Position numbers and translations under genes: made by a program. A stretch of 56,215 bases of DNA from Anaerolineae bacterium (GTDB taxonomy: Bacteria; Chloroflexota; Anaerolineae; Aggregatilineales; Phototrophicaceae), in the NCBI GenBank assembly GCA_026645945.1, contig JAPKMO010000012.1, positions 1-56,215 of the forward strand, read 5' to 3'. Positions within the stretch are counted from its first letter, which is position 1. Each line of letters opens with the position of its first letter. Shown here piece by piece: positions 38,147 to 46,422 of the stretch. The notes under the pieces were generated by a model. It was not told the origin of the DNA. It did no database searches and was given only the letters and a program-made list of their open reading frames with translations.

Positions 38147-39127
38147 ATGAAGATCGTTTCAGGCATAATCGTGGTTTTTATGGGCCTACTGACGGTGCGG
38201 GCGCAAGCCTTACCCGAATACACGCTTCAGGTGGTGGTAGACAGCGCCTTCCTGCGCGCCGCGCCCGCCCAGGATGCGCTCGCCGTATCGTCGGTGTTTG
38301 AAAATGACAGCCTGGTGGCGGTTGGGCGCAATGTGGACGGTGAATGGCTTCAGGTCAAACGACCCGGCAGCCGCGATGCTGCCGGCTGGATTGCCCGGAA
38401 ACTGGTGTTGTTCACCTTCGAGGTAGGGCGGCTGCCGATTACCGATCTGGCAACCGGAGTCACCGGCCCGATGCCGGTCGTGGATACCGGCACAGCCGTC
38501 CTCACGGCGGGCGAAGTTATCCAGCACAGCGCCCCGGAACGCAGCGCCCCGCAGGTGGGCATCATCCCTATGCTGCGTACCGTACCTGTTGTGGAGCGCA
38601 CGCCGAATAACCAGTGGTTAAAGGTTAATTATCGCGGGACGGTGGGCTGGGTGGCGGTTTTCCTGGTCGTATCCAGCGCCGATCTCAACGCCGTTCCCAT
38701 CAGCCCGGAGTATGCCGCCGACCCGCAGTATGCCGCCTATGAGATCATCCCGCCTGAAGTACAGCTTGCCCAGGCCGACCGGCTGCTGGCGTATATTCAA
38801 TGGGTCGGCGAAACCGCCGCCGGGGTCGCCAATTACTGGCGGATGTTATCCAGGGGCGAGACGATGCCCTGCAATCCGCCGGGCGATGCCGCTTATTTTG
38901 TGATGACGGCGCGTGACCTGGTGGAACTGCCGGAGCTGCGCCGGCAGGAACGCAACTTGCAGCAGGCGGTAGACGACCTAAACGCCGCCATTGACGCGAT
39001 GCGGCGCTGCGGGGTGTACCGGCAGTTTGAAATCCGCGAGGCCTATTCAAAGGCGCTCAACGCGCAGGCGCTTTTGAGGGTTGTGGCGCAGCGCATGGAG
39101 AATGTGCGGAAACAGATCGGGAGGTGA
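38147..39127 (+). CDS. Exported double-SH3b protein with unnamed C-terminal helical domain
   Basis: The 326-residue protein has a signal peptide (cut near VRAQA), two SH3b-like modules (about 28-90, with DSAFLRAAPAQDA and GWIARKLVLF; about 118-178, with IQHSAPERSAPQVG and GWVAVFLVV), then a helical domain (about 200-326). The latter contains WRMLSRGETMPCN, a second cysteine 46 residues later (MRRCG), and long amphipathic helices. The same pattern (W-R-x-L-x2-G-x-T-x2-C-N) occurs in the SH3b protein at 45.4 kb, so the two are paralogues. SH3b domains usually bind cell-wall or surface polymers. Function unknown. Confidence 0.75.
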   Translation: MKIVSGIIVVFMGLLTVRAQALPEYTLQVVVDSAFLRAAPAQDALAVSSVFENDSLVAVGRNVDGEWLQVKRPGSRDAAGWIARKLVLFTFEVGRLPITDLATGVTGPMPVVDTGTAVLTAGEVIQHSAPERSAPQVGIIPMLRTVPVVERTPNNQWLKVNYRGTVGWVAVFLVVSSADLNAVPISPEYAADPQYAAYEIIPPEVQLAQADRLLAYIQWVGETAAGVANYWRMLSRGETMPCNPPGDAAYFVMTARDLVELPELRRQERNLQQAVDDLNAAIDAMRRCGVYRQFEIREAYSKALNAQALLRVVAQRMENVRKQIGR

Positions 39128-39149
39128 TGTAAATTTTCTGTATTCTGTA

Positions 39150-39174
39150 GAGGGCAGGTTTGAAACCCGCCCTC
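39150..39174. repeat. Palindromic repeat, GGGTTT-n-AAACCC class
   Basis: GAGGGCAGGTTT and AAACCCGCCCTC pair with one mismatch around a single base. It sits between convergent genes and may terminate both. The same design recurs at 55.95 kb (GGGGAGGGTTT-c-AAACTCTCCCC) and more loosely at 55.82 kb. Confidence 0.65.
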
Positions 39175-39177
39175 ACA

Positions 39178-39981
39178 TCACGGCACAAGCGGCGGCGGCG
39201 TGGAGGTGGGCTGCGGTGTCCAGTAGCCGCCATAGCGGTAGCGCGGCGGGCGCGCGGTGGGCGGGATGCCGGGGATTACAAATGTGCCGCCGGTTTGCAG
39301 CAGGCAGATCTGCTGCCAGTTGTAACGTTCCGGCCCGTTCGACCAGTAAGGGGCGACGCGCCAAGTGTACGTGCCGACCTCGCGGCCCAATTTCGCCCGT
39401 TCGATTTCGGCAGTGGTGGTGGTGCTGTCGAAGGCGGTGCGCTGCCCGGACGGCGAAATCACGATCACACTGTAGACGTTCGCGCCCGGCAGTTCAGGAT
39501 AGGTGACGGTCAGAATGCGGTCGCCCGCCGCAAAATCCCCGCTGCGGGTGAAAGCGCCCTTCCAGTTTGCGCACAGGTTTTCAGATAGGTCGAAAACCTC
39601 TGGCACACGCCCGTTACGGTTGCGCGGCAGCCGCCGCCCGGTGGGCGGGATGCTGTTGAAGGGGACGCTGGTGCGGATGAGGCGGGCATAAACCCAGCCG
39701 GTGCGCCCTTCATACTCAATTTCTAACCACTGGCTGCCTGTCCAGGCATAATAAAAATCTCCGCTGCGGCCCAGCACCCGCACCGAAGCGTTCAGGGCAA
39801 GCTGGCCGATTAAATCGTAAGCAAAATCCGGGCCAACATAAACACGCGCGCCGTTGAAGGCGACGATACCGGTGATAGTTTCGCCGGGGCGGGCCGCGTC
39901 CGGGTCGCCGGGCGGTTGGGCCAGCGCCGCCGATGCCGCCAGCAGCAGGATACCGATCAGGATGAGCCATAAGCTACGCAC
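39178..39981 (-). CDS. Exported SH3b protein with beta-sandwich C-terminal part
   Basis: The 267-residue protein has a signal peptide (LILIGILLLAASAALA-Q), an SH3b-like module at about 35-105 (ARVYVGPDFAYDLIGQLA, WLEIEYEGRTGWVYARLIR), and a beta-rich part at about 125-235 (ILTVTYPELPGANVYSVIV, GTYTWRVAPYW) that recalls a fibronectin-type or CARDB-like sandwich. Two cysteines (SENLC and QQICLL) bracket this part. It ends in a Pro/Thr-rich tail. It lies 51 bases after the Liv-type binding-protein gene on the same strand, so both are likely cotranscribed. Function unknown. Confidence 0.75.
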   Translation of the reverse strand: MRSLWLILIGILLLAASAALAQPPGDPDAARPGETITGIVAFNGARVYVGPDFAYDLIGQLALNASVRVLGRSGDFYYAWTGSQWLEIEYEGRTGWVYARLIRTSVPFNSIPPTGRRLPRNRNGRVPEVFDLSENLCANWKGAFTRSGDFAAGDRILTVTYPELPGANVYSVIVISPSGQRTAFDSTTTTAEIERAKLGREVGTYTWRVAPYWSNGPERYNWQQICLLQTGGTFVIPGIPPTARPPRYRYGGYWTPQPTSTPPPLVP

Positions 39982-40032
39982 GCTGGTTTCCCCCTGGAAG
40001 CTGAATTCCGAATAAAGACTGATAACTGGGCG

Positions 40033-41283
40033 TTAATTCTGGCATGTCGTCCGTTCCTCGATTAGGGCGCGTTCTCGCCAGGTCGGAAAGGGCAGCAAAC
40101 TATCCGGACAGGTGGCGAGCGCCGCCGGGTAAACGGTGCAGAACCGCCCGTTCTGGCGCTGTGTCACGATGATGGCGGCTTCAGTGTTCGCACCGGCGGC
40201 AAATGATAAACCTTCGCCTATCAGTCCGGCGGGCGCGGGCGCAGCGGCGGCGAGGATGGCGGCGCGAAAACCATCCGCCGAAAAATCTACCGCCGGCGCG
40301 GCATAGCGCAGCAGCAGGTATACCCCGGAAGCGCCCTGATTGGCGCGTTCGCCCGGCTCACGCTCGAAACGCTGCCGGTAGACCTGAAGGTACTGTTCGT
40401 AAAGCGCGCCCAGCGCGCCGTGCCGGTAGATTTCGCTGGCTGGGCCGGCGGCGCTGATGGCGATCAAACCGTCGGTGTTGCCCAGGCGGTCACAGGTATT
40501 ACGGCGGTACGTCTCGCCGCCGATGTGTATCCAGGCCCGGAGGTTGGCGTCGGCCTCGCGCATATCGTACCACAGGCCGTCGGCGTCATCTTCAAACCCG
40601 ACCACGATAACCGTATTAATGCCCCGCTCGCGCATCTGGACGGCCAGATCATACGTGTCGGTCAGCGTATTGTTGTAGCGGCGGGTGAAAAGCGGGTCTG
40701 CATTTAAGGCAACGATCAGCTCGGCGGCGGCGGCGCTGGCGCGGGGGCGGTTTTCGTAAATCACCGCCGGACGCAGCGGCTCACCTTCCGGCAGTTCCGC
40801 CGCGAAGTTATTCACGACAGCCGCCGACAGCCGCCCGAAAGCGGCGCTGGACGGGCGCGGCGAGAAAGCGTATTCGTGCGCGGCATCCAGCGGCTCGGTC
40901 ACTTCCCAATAAACGAACGCGCCATCCCGCGAGGCTTCCAGCAGCACGTCGCTGATGACCGGCGAACCACTGCCGATAACCAGCGGCACATCGTCGCGCA
41001 GGGTTTCGACGGCGGCGAGCGCCTGGTTATAGTTGGCGGCGGCGCGGTAGATCAGCTCCACCGGGCGGCCATTAACCCCGCCGCAGGTTTTGAGGGCTTC
41101 GACCATCGCGGCCACGCCCCGGTAAGAATCGGCGGCTTCGACGCTGAACAGCGATTCGGGCGGGAAAACCGCGCCGATACGCAGCGGCGAGCCGGCAGCC
41201 GGCGAACACTCGGCGGGCGAGTCCTGCGCGGCGGTAAACCCGAAAAATGCCAGAAACAGCATCAGCAGCCCGAAAATTTTCAT
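40033..41283 (-). CDS. Liv-type ABC substrate-binding-like protein (orphan)
   Basis: The 416-residue exported protein resembles the branched-chain amino acid/urea binding fold (peripla_BP_6): LRIGAVFPPESLF, YRGVAAMVEALKTCGGVNGRPVELIY, VPLVIGSGSPVISDVL, and RERGINTVIVVGFEDDADG. The signal peptide ends near FTAA-Q. No permease or ATPase genes accompany it; instead an SH3b gene follows and a propeller gene is divergent. Such orphans can act as sensors or deliver ligand to distant transporters. Ligand unknown. Confidence 0.75.
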   Translation of the reverse strand: MKIFGLLMLFLAFFGFTAAQDSPAECSPAAGSPLRIGAVFPPESLFSVEAADSYRGVAAMVEALKTCGGVNGRPVELIYRAAANYNQALAAVETLRDDVPLVIGSGSPVISDVLLEASRDGAFVYWEVTEPLDAAHEYAFSPRPSSAAFGRLSAAVVNNFAAELPEGEPLRPAVIYENRPRASAAAAELIVALNADPLFTRRYNNTLTDTYDLAVQMRERGINTVIVVGFEDDADGLWYDMREADANLRAWIHIGGETYRRNTCDRLGNTDGLIAISAAGPASEIYRHGALGALYEQYLQVYRQRFEREPGERANQGASGVYLLLRYAAPAVDFSADGFRAAILAAAAPAPAGLIGEGLSFAAGANTEAAIIVTQRQNGRFCTVYPAALATCPDSLLPFPTWRERALIEERTTCQN

Positions 41284-41446
41284 GACATTTATTCCTGAGC
41301 GGTGCGCGTGTTGAATCTACTATATAATACAATTGCCAGCCGGAAGCCAACCGTAGGCAACTCGTCAGGGAAACGATTGGCGCGGAAAAGCCAGGCACGT
41401 TTACTCTGAATGTAACACGACTCGCAGCTTCATTTAGGAAAACCTC

Positions 41447-44400
41447 ATGCAGCGAACACATGCCTTTGTGCTGGTATTGATGCTCCTGTTTACGTCCGGC
41501 GTCGTGCTGTCGCAGAGCGTCCCGGCGGGAACGCCGGAGGCGACCGCCGAACCGACGCCGGAAGTCGCCTTCAAGATCGAAAGCGAGATCGGACGCGCAC
41601 TGCCGCGCAAAATCGTTTACGACCCGCAGCGCGAACGCATGGCCGTTGCCGACGCTTACAACCGTCTGCTGCTGGTGAACGCGCTGGATTACGCCACTAT
41701 CGCCGTTTTGTACGAACGCGGCGAATACAACGACATCGCCTTCAGCCATGATGGGCGCTGGCTGGCGGTGGCTTATGGCGACCGGATGGATGTCTGGGAT
41801 ACCGATACGGGCCGGCTGTCGGTTTCGCTCGGTAATCTGAACGCCAAGCGGCTGATCGGCCCGATTCAGTTTTCCGCCCAGGACGAAATCCTGATTTTTT
41901 ACGGCATCTACCCCGCGCCGCGCGCGCTGCGCCAGTCCGAAACCGACACAATCACCTATCCCTGGGTGTGGCATCTGCCGGCTGCCCGGCAGGAAGCGCC
42001 GTCGAGCTTCCCGAACGGCGTCAACGCGGTGCAGATGTTTGATTACCCGTTCGGCTTCGTGCTGTCGCCGGATGATAAGGTGGTGGCGGCGCTGCCCGCC
42101 CGCCTGCGCGTGCTGGATGTGTATACGCTGGCGGTTGAACACGAGATTACCACCGACCGCTACGAGCAGGACCCGCTGCGAGTCTGGTTCAGCCTGCGGG
42201 ATAATACGATTTACACCCGCCCCCTGAGTGGCAATACGCTGCTCCAGGTGGATACACGCCGGGGCGTGCTGGTAGAAATCCCGATGAATGCTGAACTCAC
42301 GCTGGATGACCTGGGGCTGATCGGCGGGCTGGAAGTCGGCTCGATTGCGCGGGTGGTCGGCGGGCAGGCATCGCGGGTGACTGTTCCGCTGCTCCAGGTG
42401 TTCCTGGGATATTATTACCGAGATGAACAAATTTACGGCAATCGCGCGCTGACGGTCACGCTGGTTGATCTGGTTGTGCCGCCGACCGGCACGCAGGATA
42501 ACGTGCGCGCTCTGCTGTTCGTGTACGATGAGTTGAAACGCACCGGCGTGTTTCGCTTCAGCGAGTCCGGCGCGGCGCAGCAGATGGTTTTAAGTCCCGA
42601 TGGCAATCAAATCCTGGTGCGGCGCTATGATGGCGATGAATATATCATCACCTATGATCTGGACACCGGCCAGGAGTTCCGCCGCTTTTTACCGGCGCTG
42701 CGGGCTATCGGCAGCTACAGCCGGACTTCTAAAAACCGCGTGCTGGCTTATGATCTGTCCGGCCAGGTCATCATCAGCGACTTCCAGCGGTTGAAGGCCA
42801 ATACAAACGAAATATTGGCCGAAGACCTGCGCTACTCGCGCAGTTTTGACCGCTTTTTCTGGAGCGACGACAGCCAGAAAATCATTACGCTGGCCGGCAG
42901 CGAGTGGCGCGAATGGAGCGTGGCGACCGGCGAGGTGCTGCGCCGCGAGGTGGTTTACATGAGCGGTTCGATCATCGCCACTTCGCCGGACGGCTACCGC
43001 TATCTGGCACGCTTCGATACCCAGGGTGGCGGCGGCGGCGTGGAAGTTGTGGACATGAGCAGCGGCGAACGATATACCGTTTCCTTCGCGGCCATCCCCG
43101 GCAGCTACGTGGCGGAAGTTTACCCCAACGCTTCCTGGACACGCTTCCTGGTCGTTTACAGCGAAAACCGTTATGGGCCGTATACGCCCGGCAACCAGAT
43201 CGCGCTGTACCATTATCGGGACGGCCTGCGGGCTTTCTTGGCCGGCGACGACCTGCCGCCGGTCGGCCAGCGGTTGTACGGCTGGGTAGACGAAGATACT
43301 GCCTATGTGTACGGCCAGGGAGCGGCCAGCAGCCAGCCGGGGCGGGTTTACGGCGTGGAGTACGCGCCCAGCGGCCTGCCGGCCTGCCTGGAAGCGGCTT
43401 TCCCGCAGCAGGTTGATTCGTTCCTGAAGCTGTGGGAATGGCTGCTGCTGAACCTGCGCGCCGACCAGATGGACGACCTGGCACGGCAGCTTTGCGACAG
43501 CCTGCCGCAGACGGCGGCGGAGGCCGAACAGCGGCTGCTGCCCACGCCCGCGCCGACGGTTTTCGCCGTGACCGGCGTGCCGACGGGGGAGGTGCCGCAG
43601 TGCCTTAAAGACCGTTATCCCGCCGAGGCCGAGGCTTACAGCGATCTGTGGCGGGCGATCACAGCGGGGTCGTCGGAGGCGGAGCGGCAGCGGTTGGCGG
43701 TGCTGCTGTGCGAAGGCATCGGCGAAATCCGCCCACCGCAGGAGTTTGACCCATCGCTTGGCATCACCCTGTTCATCAACGGCGATACCGGCGAACGCGC
43801 CAGCGGCGATTTCCGGTCACCAGTGGTGGAACGCCGCCCGCTGGAGCCGGTTTATGCACTGTTTGAAAAAACCGAAAAACGTTCGCTGGGGACGGCCATC
43901 CTCAGCCGGGATAAACAACTGCTGGCGGCGTCCAGCCTGCCGGGGGAGCTGGTGATTTACCGGCTGATCGTGAGCTACGATACCATCATGGGTTGGGTGA
44001 CGGCCACCGCCGCCGCGCAGCTTGCCGAGGCCAACCTGATCGTCGCCATGCCGTCGCCGTCGCCGACCTACAACCCCATCGGCACGCCGCGCCCGACGCT
44101 GACGCCCACGCCCCGGCAGACGCTTGTGCCGCGCCCGACGGAGTACGTTTTCCCCGACGGCGTGAGGGACATAAGCCTGTGTCCCTCAGAGACGCTGTAC
44201 AGCATCAGCAGCCCTCCAGCGGAATATGACGCCACAGGACGGATGTATGCCGAGGTGTTTGGCGATTACCTGTGGGTGGTTGAGCCGGAGGACGGCACGC
44301 GCCGCGAAGACCCTGACCTGCTCCAGTGTGGACGCGGGGTGCGCTGCCAGTTTTCGCCGGATAAGGCCTGGATTCTGGCCGAAAGTTACGATTATATCTA

Positions 44401-45298
44401 TGTGGTGCGGCCTGATAACAGCGACCCGCGCGTGCTGTGGGACCTGCGAACGCCATACCCACCCACGCCCGTACCGTCTAACCTGTGGTGGTCGGGCGAC
44501 CGCACGCTGGAGTGGCAGGCGCGCATCCCGGTTACGGCAGCGCCGACCAGCGCTGTGTACTACGAACAGGCGTATATCCGCGACGTGATGAATGTTTATC
44601 CCGACCCGCCGCCCTGGATTCCGCGCATCACCATCAATCGGATACCGGCGCAGTTCATCAGCCGGCAGCCGGGCGGCCCCTGGGCGCTGGCTTCGACCAG
44701 CTACAGCACCGGCACGGGATTGGGATATAAATATTACCTGTACAACACCGAAACCGGCGCATACCTTCTGTTCGCGCAGAACGAATACAACGAAATCAAT
44801 TTGTACTGGCATCCATCGGGCGACCGGTTGTTTTACCGCTTCCCGACGAGGAACGGTTACACATCGGCCTATCAGGTGACGTTCCCGGAAAACTCGAATC
44901 GCTACCTAAACCTTGTCCCCGACGGAGTATGGTCGAACGATGGGCGCTACCTGGCGAACAGCACCCGTTCCCGGATACAGCAGATATCCGTGTGGGACAG
45001 CCAGACGGGGCTGTACCGGACCTACTGCCTGCCGGAAACTGGCGCGCGGTTGTATGACGGGCCGTTCGTCTGGTCGCCGGACAGCCGCTATCTGGCGCTG
45101 CTGACCCCGCTGCCGAAAGACGAAGCGCGGGAAGGCGTCGGCCAGCATACGCTGATTCTGAATATCGAAACCGGACAGGTGGTAGACCTGACGACCGGCG
45201 TAACCAATATTTTGATCTGGGCGCAGGAGCCGGGAACTTATGGTGATGGCCGGGTGATGACGCCCACGCCGACCGCCGGCCCAACTACGACGCCCTGA
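41447..45298 (+). CDS. Large exported two-propeller protein with duplicated Cys module
   Basis: The 1283-residue protein has a signal peptide (cut near VLSQS), then a Thr/Pro linker. About residues 45-630 contain WD40-like blades (FSHDGRWLAVAYGDRMDVWD, LSPDGNQILVRRYDGDEYIIT) and about 880-1270 more blades (FSPDKAWILAESYDYIYVV, WSPDSRYLALLTPLP). Between them lie two tandem copies of a 37-residue helical module, C647-C683 and C719-C755, exactly 36 residues apart in each copy and 72 residues in period (CLxxxFP ... LW ... LC). A Pro/Thr linker (PSPSPTYNPIGTPRPTLTPT) precedes the second propeller, and another PTPTAGPTTTP ends the protein. No enzyme motif is seen. Adhesion, scaffolding or a surface sensor are possible roles. 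TAGGAAAACC precedes ATG. Confidence 0.8.
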   Translation: MQRTHAFVLVLMLLFTSGVVLSQSVPAGTPEATAEPTPEVAFKIESEIGRALPRKIVYDPQRERMAVADAYNRLLLVNALDYATIAVLYERGEYNDIAFSHDGRWLAVAYGDRMDVWDTDTGRLSVSLGNLNAKRLIGPIQFSAQDEILIFYGIYPAPRALRQSETDTITYPWVWHLPAARQEAPSSFPNGVNAVQMFDYPFGFVLSPDDKVVAALPARLRVLDVYTLAVEHEITTDRYEQDPLRVWFSLRDNTIYTRPLSGNTLLQVDTRRGVLVEIPMNAELTLDDLGLIGGLEVGSIARVVGGQASRVTVPLLQVFLGYYYRDEQIYGNRALTVTLVDLVVPPTGTQDNVRALLFVYDELKRTGVFRFSESGAAQQMVLSPDGNQILVRRYDGDEYIITYDLDTGQEFRRFLPALRAIGSYSRTSKNRVLAYDLSGQVIISDFQRLKANTNEILAEDLRYSRSFDRFFWSDDSQKIITLAGSEWREWSVATGEVLRREVVYMSGSIIATSPDGYRYLARFDTQGGGGGVEVVDMSSGERYTVSFAAIPGSYVAEVYPNASWTRFLVVYSENRYGPYTPGNQIALYHYRDGLRAFLAGDDLPPVGQRLYGWVDEDTAYVYGQGAASSQPGRVYGVEYAPSGLPACLEAAFPQQVDSFLKLWEWLLLNLRADQMDDLARQLCDSLPQTAAEAEQRLLPTPAPTVFAVTGVPTGEVPQCLKDRYPAEAEAYSDLWRAITAGSSEAERQRLAVLLCEGIGEIRPPQEFDPSLGITLFINGDTGERASGDFRSPVVERRPLEPVYALFEKTEKRSLGTAILSRDKQLLAASSLPGELVIYRLIVSYDTIMGWVTATAAAQLAEANLIVAMPSPSPTYNPIGTPRPTLTPTPRQTLVPRPTEYVFPDGVRDISLCPSETLYSISSPPAEYDATGRMYAEVFGDYLWVVEPEDGTRREDPDLLQCGRGVRCQFSPDKAWILAESYDYIYVVRPDNSDPRVLWDLRTPYPPTPVPSNLWWSGDRTLEWQARIPVTAAPTSAVYYEQAYIRDVMNVYPDPPPWIPRITINRIPAQFISRQPGGPWALASTSYSTGTGLGYKYYLYNTETGAYLLFAQNEYNEINLYWHPSGDRLFYRFPTRNGYTSAYQVTFPENSNRYLNLVPDGVWSNDGRYLANSTRSRIQQISVWDSQTGLYRTYCLPETGARLYDGPFVWSPDSRYLALLTPLPKDEAREGVGQHTLILNIETGQVVDLTTGVTNILIWAQEPGTYGDGRVMTPTPTAGPTTTP

Positions 45299-45378
45299 GA
45301 GCGTTTTTTTCCGGCGGGCGCAGCGACGCGCCCCCTGCGTGCGTGAACGGCGAAGATGACAAACGGCGAGAAGAATCT

Positions 45379-46422
45379 ATGCTGAAACGAATATTGCTGC
45401 TTATGCTGGTCTGCGGCGGCCTGATCGCCGGGAAATCGGCGGCGCAAGAACAACCCGTCCAGCCGGAAACCCCACCGGTTTACGTAACTACCCAGGATTA
45501 CACCGCGCTGCGGGCCGGGCCGGGGCGGCACTGGCAGCGGTTGGCGGCGCTGCCCTACGGCGCGACCTACCGCGCCACCGCGCGCACCATTGACGCCGAG
45601 TGGATCCAGATCGCCTACGAGGGCGAACTTGACCCGGACGCGCCTAAACGGTACACCAGGGACGGCGTGACTTACGGCTGGGTGGTTTACTGGCTGCTGG
45701 TATGGTCGGGAGATATTCTGCAACTGCCGATTGACGGCCAGCAGTTCACGCCGACCGCCCGCGCTGCCGGGCCAACGATGGTGCTGTACCCCGATGAGTA
45801 TATGTATGAAGGTGGCGTAGATCCCTCGACGCGGGTGGACAACCCGATGGATACGCCGGTGACGGTAGAAGTTACCGGGCGGCTGGGGTCGCCGGAGAGT
45901 GGATATTTTCTGCTCCAGTTTAAGCTCAACAACCGTTATTACTGGACGGGAACGTGGGCGGTCGGTGTGCCAGGTGGTTACGCGCAGCTCCCGGATGCGG
46001 CCTACCTGTACCCATATGGCCGCTTGCTGCTGGAACTACGCAGCGAACTGAACCGCGCCGGGGGTGTTCTGAGCGACATCGGTGGGCGCTGGCGGGCGCT
46101 GGACGAAGGCCGGACGACCACCTGCAACGCTATCCCGGCGGATTTTGAACTGCGCGAAACCAGCTTTAGCGCGACCGATCTGAACATCGAGCCGATTTAC
46201 CGCCCGATGGCAGAGGCGTTACGCAGCGCCCAGGTCAGCATCAACGCGGCGCTGGCGCGTTTTCGGGATGTGTGCGCCCGGCCCGGCGACCGCCAGGTGC
46301 GCCCGGAGGACATCCACGAAGCCATGCTGGATGTCCGCGAAGCCGAGCGCAGTCTGACGATTGTCCGCACGCTGCTGGTCCCCTTGCAGCGCACCGACCC
46401 GGTGTTCAACCGGGGAGAGTAG
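45379..46422 (+). CDS. Exported SH3b protein, paralogue of the 38.1-kb protein
   Basis: The 347-residue protein starts at ATG before LKRILLLMLVCGG, giving a clean signal peptide (cut near SAAQ); GAGAAG lies upstream. One SH3b module spans about 30-110 (YTALRAGPGRHWQRLAALPYG, WIQIAYEG, YGWVVYWLLVW). A beta-rich middle (about 120-215) follows, and the C-terminal helical domain (about 225-345) has WRALDEGRTTTCN and a second cysteine 50 residues later (FRDVC). That domain is shared with the protein at 38.1 kb. The gene lies 80 bases after the propeller gene on the same strand, so they may act together. Function unknown. Confidence 0.75.
   Translation: MLKRILLLMLVCGGLIAGKSAAQEQPVQPETPPVYVTTQDYTALRAGPGRHWQRLAALPYGATYRATARTIDAEWIQIAYEGELDPDAPKRYTRDGVTYGWVVYWLLVWSGDILQLPIDGQQFTPTARAAGPTMVLYPDEYMYEGGVDPSTRVDNPMDTPVTVEVTGRLGSPESGYFLLQFKLNNRYYWTGTWAVGVPGGYAQLPDAAYLYPYGRLLLELRSELNRAGGVLSDIGGRWRALDEGRTTTCNAIPADFELRETSFSATDLNIEPIYRPMAEALRSAQVSINAALARFRDVCARPGDRQVRPEDIHEAMLDVREAERSLTIVRTLLVPLQRTDPVFNRGE

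Follow-up and report, generated by a model that had tools for sequence, protein, structure and literature searches.

The window analysed here is the whole of a 56,215-nucleotide stretch of contig JAPKMO010000012.1 from an Anaerolineae bacterium of the order Aggregatilineales (assembly GCA_026645945.1), and our subject is a block of five genes, named g1 to g5 in order, at positions 38147-46422. An initial annotation had described them as five consecutive genes for exported proteins without an enzyme motif, namely three SH3b proteins, an orphan Liv-type binding protein and a giant two-propeller protein, and had proposed that domains common to several members point to a co-evolved surface assembly. 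The list of open reading frames (ORFs) confirms all five genes (Table 1), but on mixed strands. g3-g2 and g4-g5 diverge from a common 163-bp region and g1 is convergent with g2, a layout that rules out a single operon.

Five genes for predicted exported proteins

For g5, the best start is the ATG at 45379, which lies immediately 5' of the signal peptide, while a GTG at 45343 gives a longer ORF. N-terminal sequence features agree with the export of all five products, which are therefore described here as predicted exported proteins. As the initial annotation had stated, no enzyme domain reached the cut-off of Pfam or NCBIfam in any of them, and NCBIfam returned nothing above cut-off for the five proteins. 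Because dN/dS against the nearest relative ranges from 0.06 to 0.21 (g2 0.06, g4 0.09, g5 0.12, g1 0.14, g3 0.21), all five genes are under purifying selection; the neighbouring metabolic genes show values of 0.06-0.07 in the same comparison.

Table 1. Position, strand and predicted character of the features in the gene block of the window.
Feature	Position	Strand	Description
g1	38147-39127	+	Predicted exported; two SH3b and C-terminal helical domain with conserved Cys pair; g5 paralogue; orthologues in 25+ loci
g2	39178-39981	-	Predicted exported; SH3b and conserved second domain, Pro/Thr-rich tail; SH3_3 4.5e-9
g3	40033-41283	-	Predicted exported Liv-type (Peripla_BP_6) binding protein without permease neighbour; marker of type I loci
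Tandem 11-bp direct repeats CGGAAGCCAAC CGTAGGCAACT CGTCAGGGAAA CGATTGG	41341-41380	+	Between divergent g3 and g4; candidate operator
g4	41447-45298	+	Predicted exported, 1283 aa, multi-propeller; helical insertion at residues ~640-780; Pro/Thr linker, then C-terminal propeller-like region
g5	45379-46422	+	Predicted exported; two SH3b and three-helix C-terminal domain

The three SH3b proteins were recognised by two routes. Pfam finds SH3_3 in g1 (3.8e-14) and g2 (Table 1). In the g5 of the window it detects no significant SH3_3 and nothing else above cut-off, but a g5 orthologue passes (SH3_3, 1.2e-11), and AlphaFold predicts for g5 (mean pLDDT 86.8) a pair of units resembling SH3b together with three long helices. 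On the orthologue match and this predicted structure, g5 is an SH3b protein despite the Pfam miss. In Foldseek the g5 model best matches wall-hydrolase SH3b domains in the PDB and, with weak similarity, the domains by which S-layer proteins bind teichoic acid; the helical part resembles numerous unrelated bundles and gives no functional information. Sequence searches of the PDB with g1/g5 and g2 gave no significant match. Aligning 26 sequences of g5 and g1 identifies the two as paralogues of identical layout, in which a pair of SH3b domains precedes a C-terminal helical domain and the cysteines C249 and C299 are invariant. This bears out the claim that members share domains. Among the small proteins g2 is the best conserved, its 16 aligned orthologues being 46-97% identical to the protein of the window.

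SH3b domains are common to g1, g2, g5 and peptidoglycan hydrolases such as YrvJ, dipeptidyl-peptidase VI, LytB and endolysins. The hydrolases, however, carry a catalytic domain (NlpC/P60, amidase or glycosidase), none of which exceeds the Pfam or NCBIfam cut-off in the proteins studied here, and unlike hydrolase SH3b domains those of g1/g5 are paired and linked to a helical domain in which two cysteines are conserved. The g1/g5 core also forms the N-terminal part of exported proteins of about 600 aa across the order (L114:6340-8130, L115, L116), and because of this occurrence it probably predates the gene block. In genome G000 (contig C8), L114:1855-3846 encodes an exported protein that is GH10-like, its family being assigned by eye, and carries a dockerin-like repeat at its C-terminus; the gene for a 596-aa protein with this SH3b-SH3b-helical core lies within a few kb of it.

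g3 matches Peripla_BP_6 (5.9e-15; 56.2 bits against a cut-off of 31.7) and aligns with solved amino-acid-binding proteins in the PDB (1.8e-11). Its family alignment (n=12) has a Ser/Thr-containing segment at the cleft position of amino-acid-binding proteins. No BPD_transp_2 (LivH/LivM-type) permease gene lies on the contig of the window, and 31 above cut-off are found elsewhere in the genome, so that g3 is an orphan Liv-type binding protein as described before. It resembles the HAAT/Liv-type binding proteins LivJ and LivK in its Peripla_BP_6 family and in its significant similarity to solved amino-acid-binding proteins, but it has additional conserved cysteines and, at the C-terminus, a motif specific to its family, and in contrast to HAAT/Liv systems it is accompanied by neither permease nor ATPase.

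The AlphaFold model of g4 residues 24-890 is mostly beta (mean pLDDT 80.9) and comprises one clear WD40-like propeller and a second propeller-like module broken by a helical stretch with paired cysteines. VIA-align superimposes model residues 27-430 on WD40-type propellers with Z up to 17.4 and an rmsd of 4.5 Å over 288 residues; matches to two-propeller proteins (EMC1, IFT proteins) reach further with a large rmsd, and the WD40-type sequence matches of g4 are weak and below the Pfam cut-offs. Since the C-terminal ~360 residues also look propeller-like in sequence, g4 may hold three propellers. The propeller fold assigned by the initial annotation thus agrees with the model, and its count of two is a minimum.

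Two versions of a jointly inherited module

Scanning GTDB species genomes with a g2 profile yielded 33 loci, which were fetched independently. Other genes of the block lie within 10 kb in 30 of them, and these loci fall into two versions: 13 share the arrangement of the window (type I), 17 show a second arrangement that the earlier reading had not seen (type II), and the remaining three carry g2 with the rest not nearby. Genomes G001, G009 and G018 hold both types. In type II, g4 is followed by g5, two TPR proteins, an SBP_bac_5 (OppA-type) protein and g1; g2 is convergent, and a gene for protein D, a weak SH3b protein, diverges from g4. In type I, g3 takes the position of D and the TPR and OppA-type genes are absent, except that the type I locus L118 has one TPR gene. 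One locus (L106/L128) has all seven type II genes on a single strand. In every locus long enough to judge, g5 adjoins g4. Mapping on the loci of relatives shows that the g4-g5 adjacency and the g1/g2 convergence are kept from 97% down to about 30% protein identity. In the window, genes for a sugar ABC transporter and for a regulator of LacI type lie to the left of the block and sugar-isomerase, aldolase and kinase genes to its right (ORF list and Pfam). These flanking sugar genes are retained only in the closest relatives.

The initial annotation had tied its proposal to co-occurrence and co-expression in relatives, and the neighbourhood and genome surveys found the co-occurrence. Profile searches of 151 genomes of the order detected g2 in 32 (plus a weak partial hit in G344) and g4 in 32, with both genes in 31 of the 33 genomes that have either (Fisher 6e-30). 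The exceptions are G030, which has g1, g2 and pieces of the genes labelled A, B, C and D and no g4, and G036, where g4 sits on a 3.4-kb contig fragment. Among 298 genomes of the class, a full g4 profile match occurs only in the family of the window, besides two weak partial hits. Trees of g1, g4 and g5 split into type I and type II with support of 0.98-1.0; the g2 tree does not recover this split. Between any two of the genes, however, the distance matrices are correlated (r 0.57-0.84, Mantel p<=0.0005). The genes form a conserved module that is inherited jointly. That unrelated exported genes merely came to lie side by side, as the mixed strands in the window might suggest, is ruled out by conserved synteny, joint presence and concordant trees, and we give it practically no credence.

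All 33 g2 loci come from metagenome-assembled genomes (MAGs) of Chloroflexota type, except for two contigs of one MAG labelled Bacteroidetes (L087 and L096, records JAPUDW). These carry the module and cluster with Aggregatilineales, and the MAG is probably mislabelled.

Extracytoplasmic assemblies of propeller and TPR proteins are known from TolB-Pal and from BAM with BamB and BamD, and type II likewise combines an exported beta-propeller with TPR proteins. Unlike these systems, the module contains SH3b and binding proteins and is restricted to the order, with no outer membrane protein assembly, TolQRA or Pal component seen; TolQRA and Pal were absent among its recurrent neighbours, though no scan of the module's flanks with Tol/Pal profiles was made.

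Because two unrelated binding-protein families occupy the two versions, ligand binding seems to matter for the module. The OppA-type replacement of g3 in type II also sets g3 further apart from LivJ and LivK. One explanation would be a transport accessory, in which orphan binding proteins feed amino acids or peptides to ABC permeases from other loci and the SH3b and propeller proteins only concentrate them at the wall. The similarity of g3 to amino-acid-binding proteins with its retained cleft segment, the SBP_bac_5 assignment in type II and the 31 permeases encoded away from the contig of the window are consistent with it. However, the module is conserved without permease or ATPase in both versions, and the conserved propeller, the paired SH3b paralogues and the TPR proteins would be left unexplained. 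We consider this explanation unlikely.

A tandem CGTAGG repeat upstream of g4

Besides the second version, the present analysis found a repeat element that had escaped the earlier reading. Alignment of the type I loci revealed the block CGTAGGnnAnnCGTCAGG within the 163 bp between g3 and g4, and an exact copy is present in the type II locus L063/L090. In most of 31 loci, CGTAGG-like hexamers are arranged in tandem with 11-bp spacing, pointing to g4. Scored over three hexamers (maximum 18), the g4 upstream regions reach a mean of 13.67 compared with 10.22 +/- 0.16 in dinucleotide shuffles, a contrast that overstates independence given that the consensus was partly derived from the scored sites and the genomes are related. 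With a threshold of >=13, 19 of 25 g4 upstream regions score positive versus 6 of 253 for other genes, and two of those six are ORFs mis-called at the g4/D region. The g2 upstream region reaches 13 in 8 of 30 cases, mostly where g2 has its own promoter, and the upstream regions of g5 and of the genes labelled A, B and C never do.

An order-wide search, which is a stronger test than the shuffles, returned 49 sites at <=1 mismatch versus 2 for the reversed pattern. Genes beside the sites are signal-peptide-like in 20 of 40 cases against a background of 35 of 344 (p 8e-9, with orthologues counted repeatedly). Among them are genes for serpins, for SH3b and PPC proteins and for one exported propeller protein, as well as ECF sigma factor genes; weaker sites precede SIMPL proteins and a RodZ-like gene. 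The distribution strongly suggests that the module is subject to shared regulation. Because the repeats precede g4 in both types as well as other exported genes across the order, the module seems to be part of an exoprotein/envelope regulon, and the tandem CGTAGG hexamers, at 41341-41380 in the window and at sites across the order (L134-L180 and L211-L226), are the candidate operator of this order-wide regulon.

Direct repeats spaced at 11 bp are characteristic of regulators of the OmpR/PhoB type. The arrangement appears similar to MtrA/WalR-type regulation, where tandem hexamers with 11-bp spacing also lie upstream of exported or envelope genes, but the consensus here is CGTAGG. One repeat site adjoins an OmpR-type response regulator gene (L172:660-1343; orthologues L181-L210). 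Of 41 genomes from the order, 40 encode this protein at 72-93% identity, and it is possibly an essential regulator of the MtrA/WalR kind. Autoregulation of this gene was considered but found no support: its scorable orthologues lack such a repeat and average 10.8 compared with 10.2 for shuffles, many others having no detectable start motif and thus no score.

The company kept by the repeats, with serpins, SIMPL proteins, a RodZ-like gene and ECF sigma factor genes next to the sites, could also fit a role in envelope or competitor defence within a stress regulon, with surface proteins serving as a trap for, or a barrier to, proteases or hostile secreted molecules. The module itself, however, has no toxin, immunity or inhibitor domain and no PADLOC or PHROG match, and we judge such a role very improbable. 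The same lack of PADLOC and PHROG matches led us to reject anti-phage defence or a phage origin.

A possible wall-bound ligand-binding assembly

The module is probably an undescribed cell-surface assembly. Of the explanations considered, we tentatively prefer that the type I genes represent, in one of its two versions, a module conserved in Aggregatilineales that makes a wall-bound extracellular ligand-binding assembly, a reading that is quite possible but falls short of being probable. All products would be exported and work outside the membrane. The SH3b proteins g1, g2, g5 and D would anchor the assembly to the cell wall, the multi-propeller protein g4 would serve as the scaffold, and the exchangeable binding protein would catch a small amino-acid- or peptide-like ligand. 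Because the module encodes no permease, kinase or enzyme, the ligand would either be passed on to transporters in shared use or be sensed by an indirect route. The module would be switched by a DNA-binding regulator with further surface proteins under its control. For the co-evolved exported assembly proposed by the initial annotation, this means that the gene level is sustained by synteny from 30 to 97% identity, phyletic profiles, trees and the operator-like element, whereas the physical assembly, and the binding of wall polymers or extracellular sensing that the annotation had suggested for it, are predictions.

Several points weigh against the wall-bound ligand-binding assembly. The three g2 loci without other module genes nearby (in genome G025, g2 lies about 50 kb from g4) indicate that g2 can act apart. 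Most members lack a transmembrane anchor or lipobox, so that free secretion is possible. In type I, the g1 gene has a separate promoter that lacks a strong match to the repeat, and the shuffle contrast carries the dependence noted above. Complex formation, wall binding and the ligands are features that we infer.

A structural or adhesive surface layer would account for part of the same evidence. Here the module would make a matrix, a sheath or a cell-cell contact layer, with binding-protein folds recruited as structural parts. Every component is an exported repeat or binding fold with extra conserved cysteines, the Foldseek matches of g5 are SH3b domains of wall hydrolases and wall-binding domains of S-layer proteins, and the repeats also precede other exported SH3b, propeller, PPC and LysM-like proteins. 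The presence of two distinct ligand-binding families on one core, in contrast, favours a ligand function, and we regard the surface layer as fairly unlikely.

A further-reaching claim would be that the module represents a new type of wall-bound extracellular receptor assembly in Chloroflexota, with a conserved propeller/SH3b core and an interchangeable Liv- or OppA-type ligand-binding module, under the control of an order-wide envelope regulon with tandem CGTAGG operators at 11-bp spacing. This is a claim we put forward with considerable doubt. A narrow search of the literature on SH3 domains in Aggregatilineales or Anaerolineae and on this domain combination found no description of the module. 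Aggregatilineales and other Anaerolineae are frequent in sludge, anammox reactors and mats, and their surface biology is almost undescribed. The module offers a set of proteins that can be tested as a complex, and a DNA motif for finding the regulator and the remaining surface regulon.

In the module proteins and their relatives, the signal peptide nearly always has AxA at its end and Gln as the next residue. At these loci Gln is likewise the most frequent +1 residue of further signal-peptide-like ORFs, as scored with a crude heuristic. A Gln in this position resembles the 'Q-rule' of Bacteroidetes (PMC5837995, where Chloroflexi are not mentioned).

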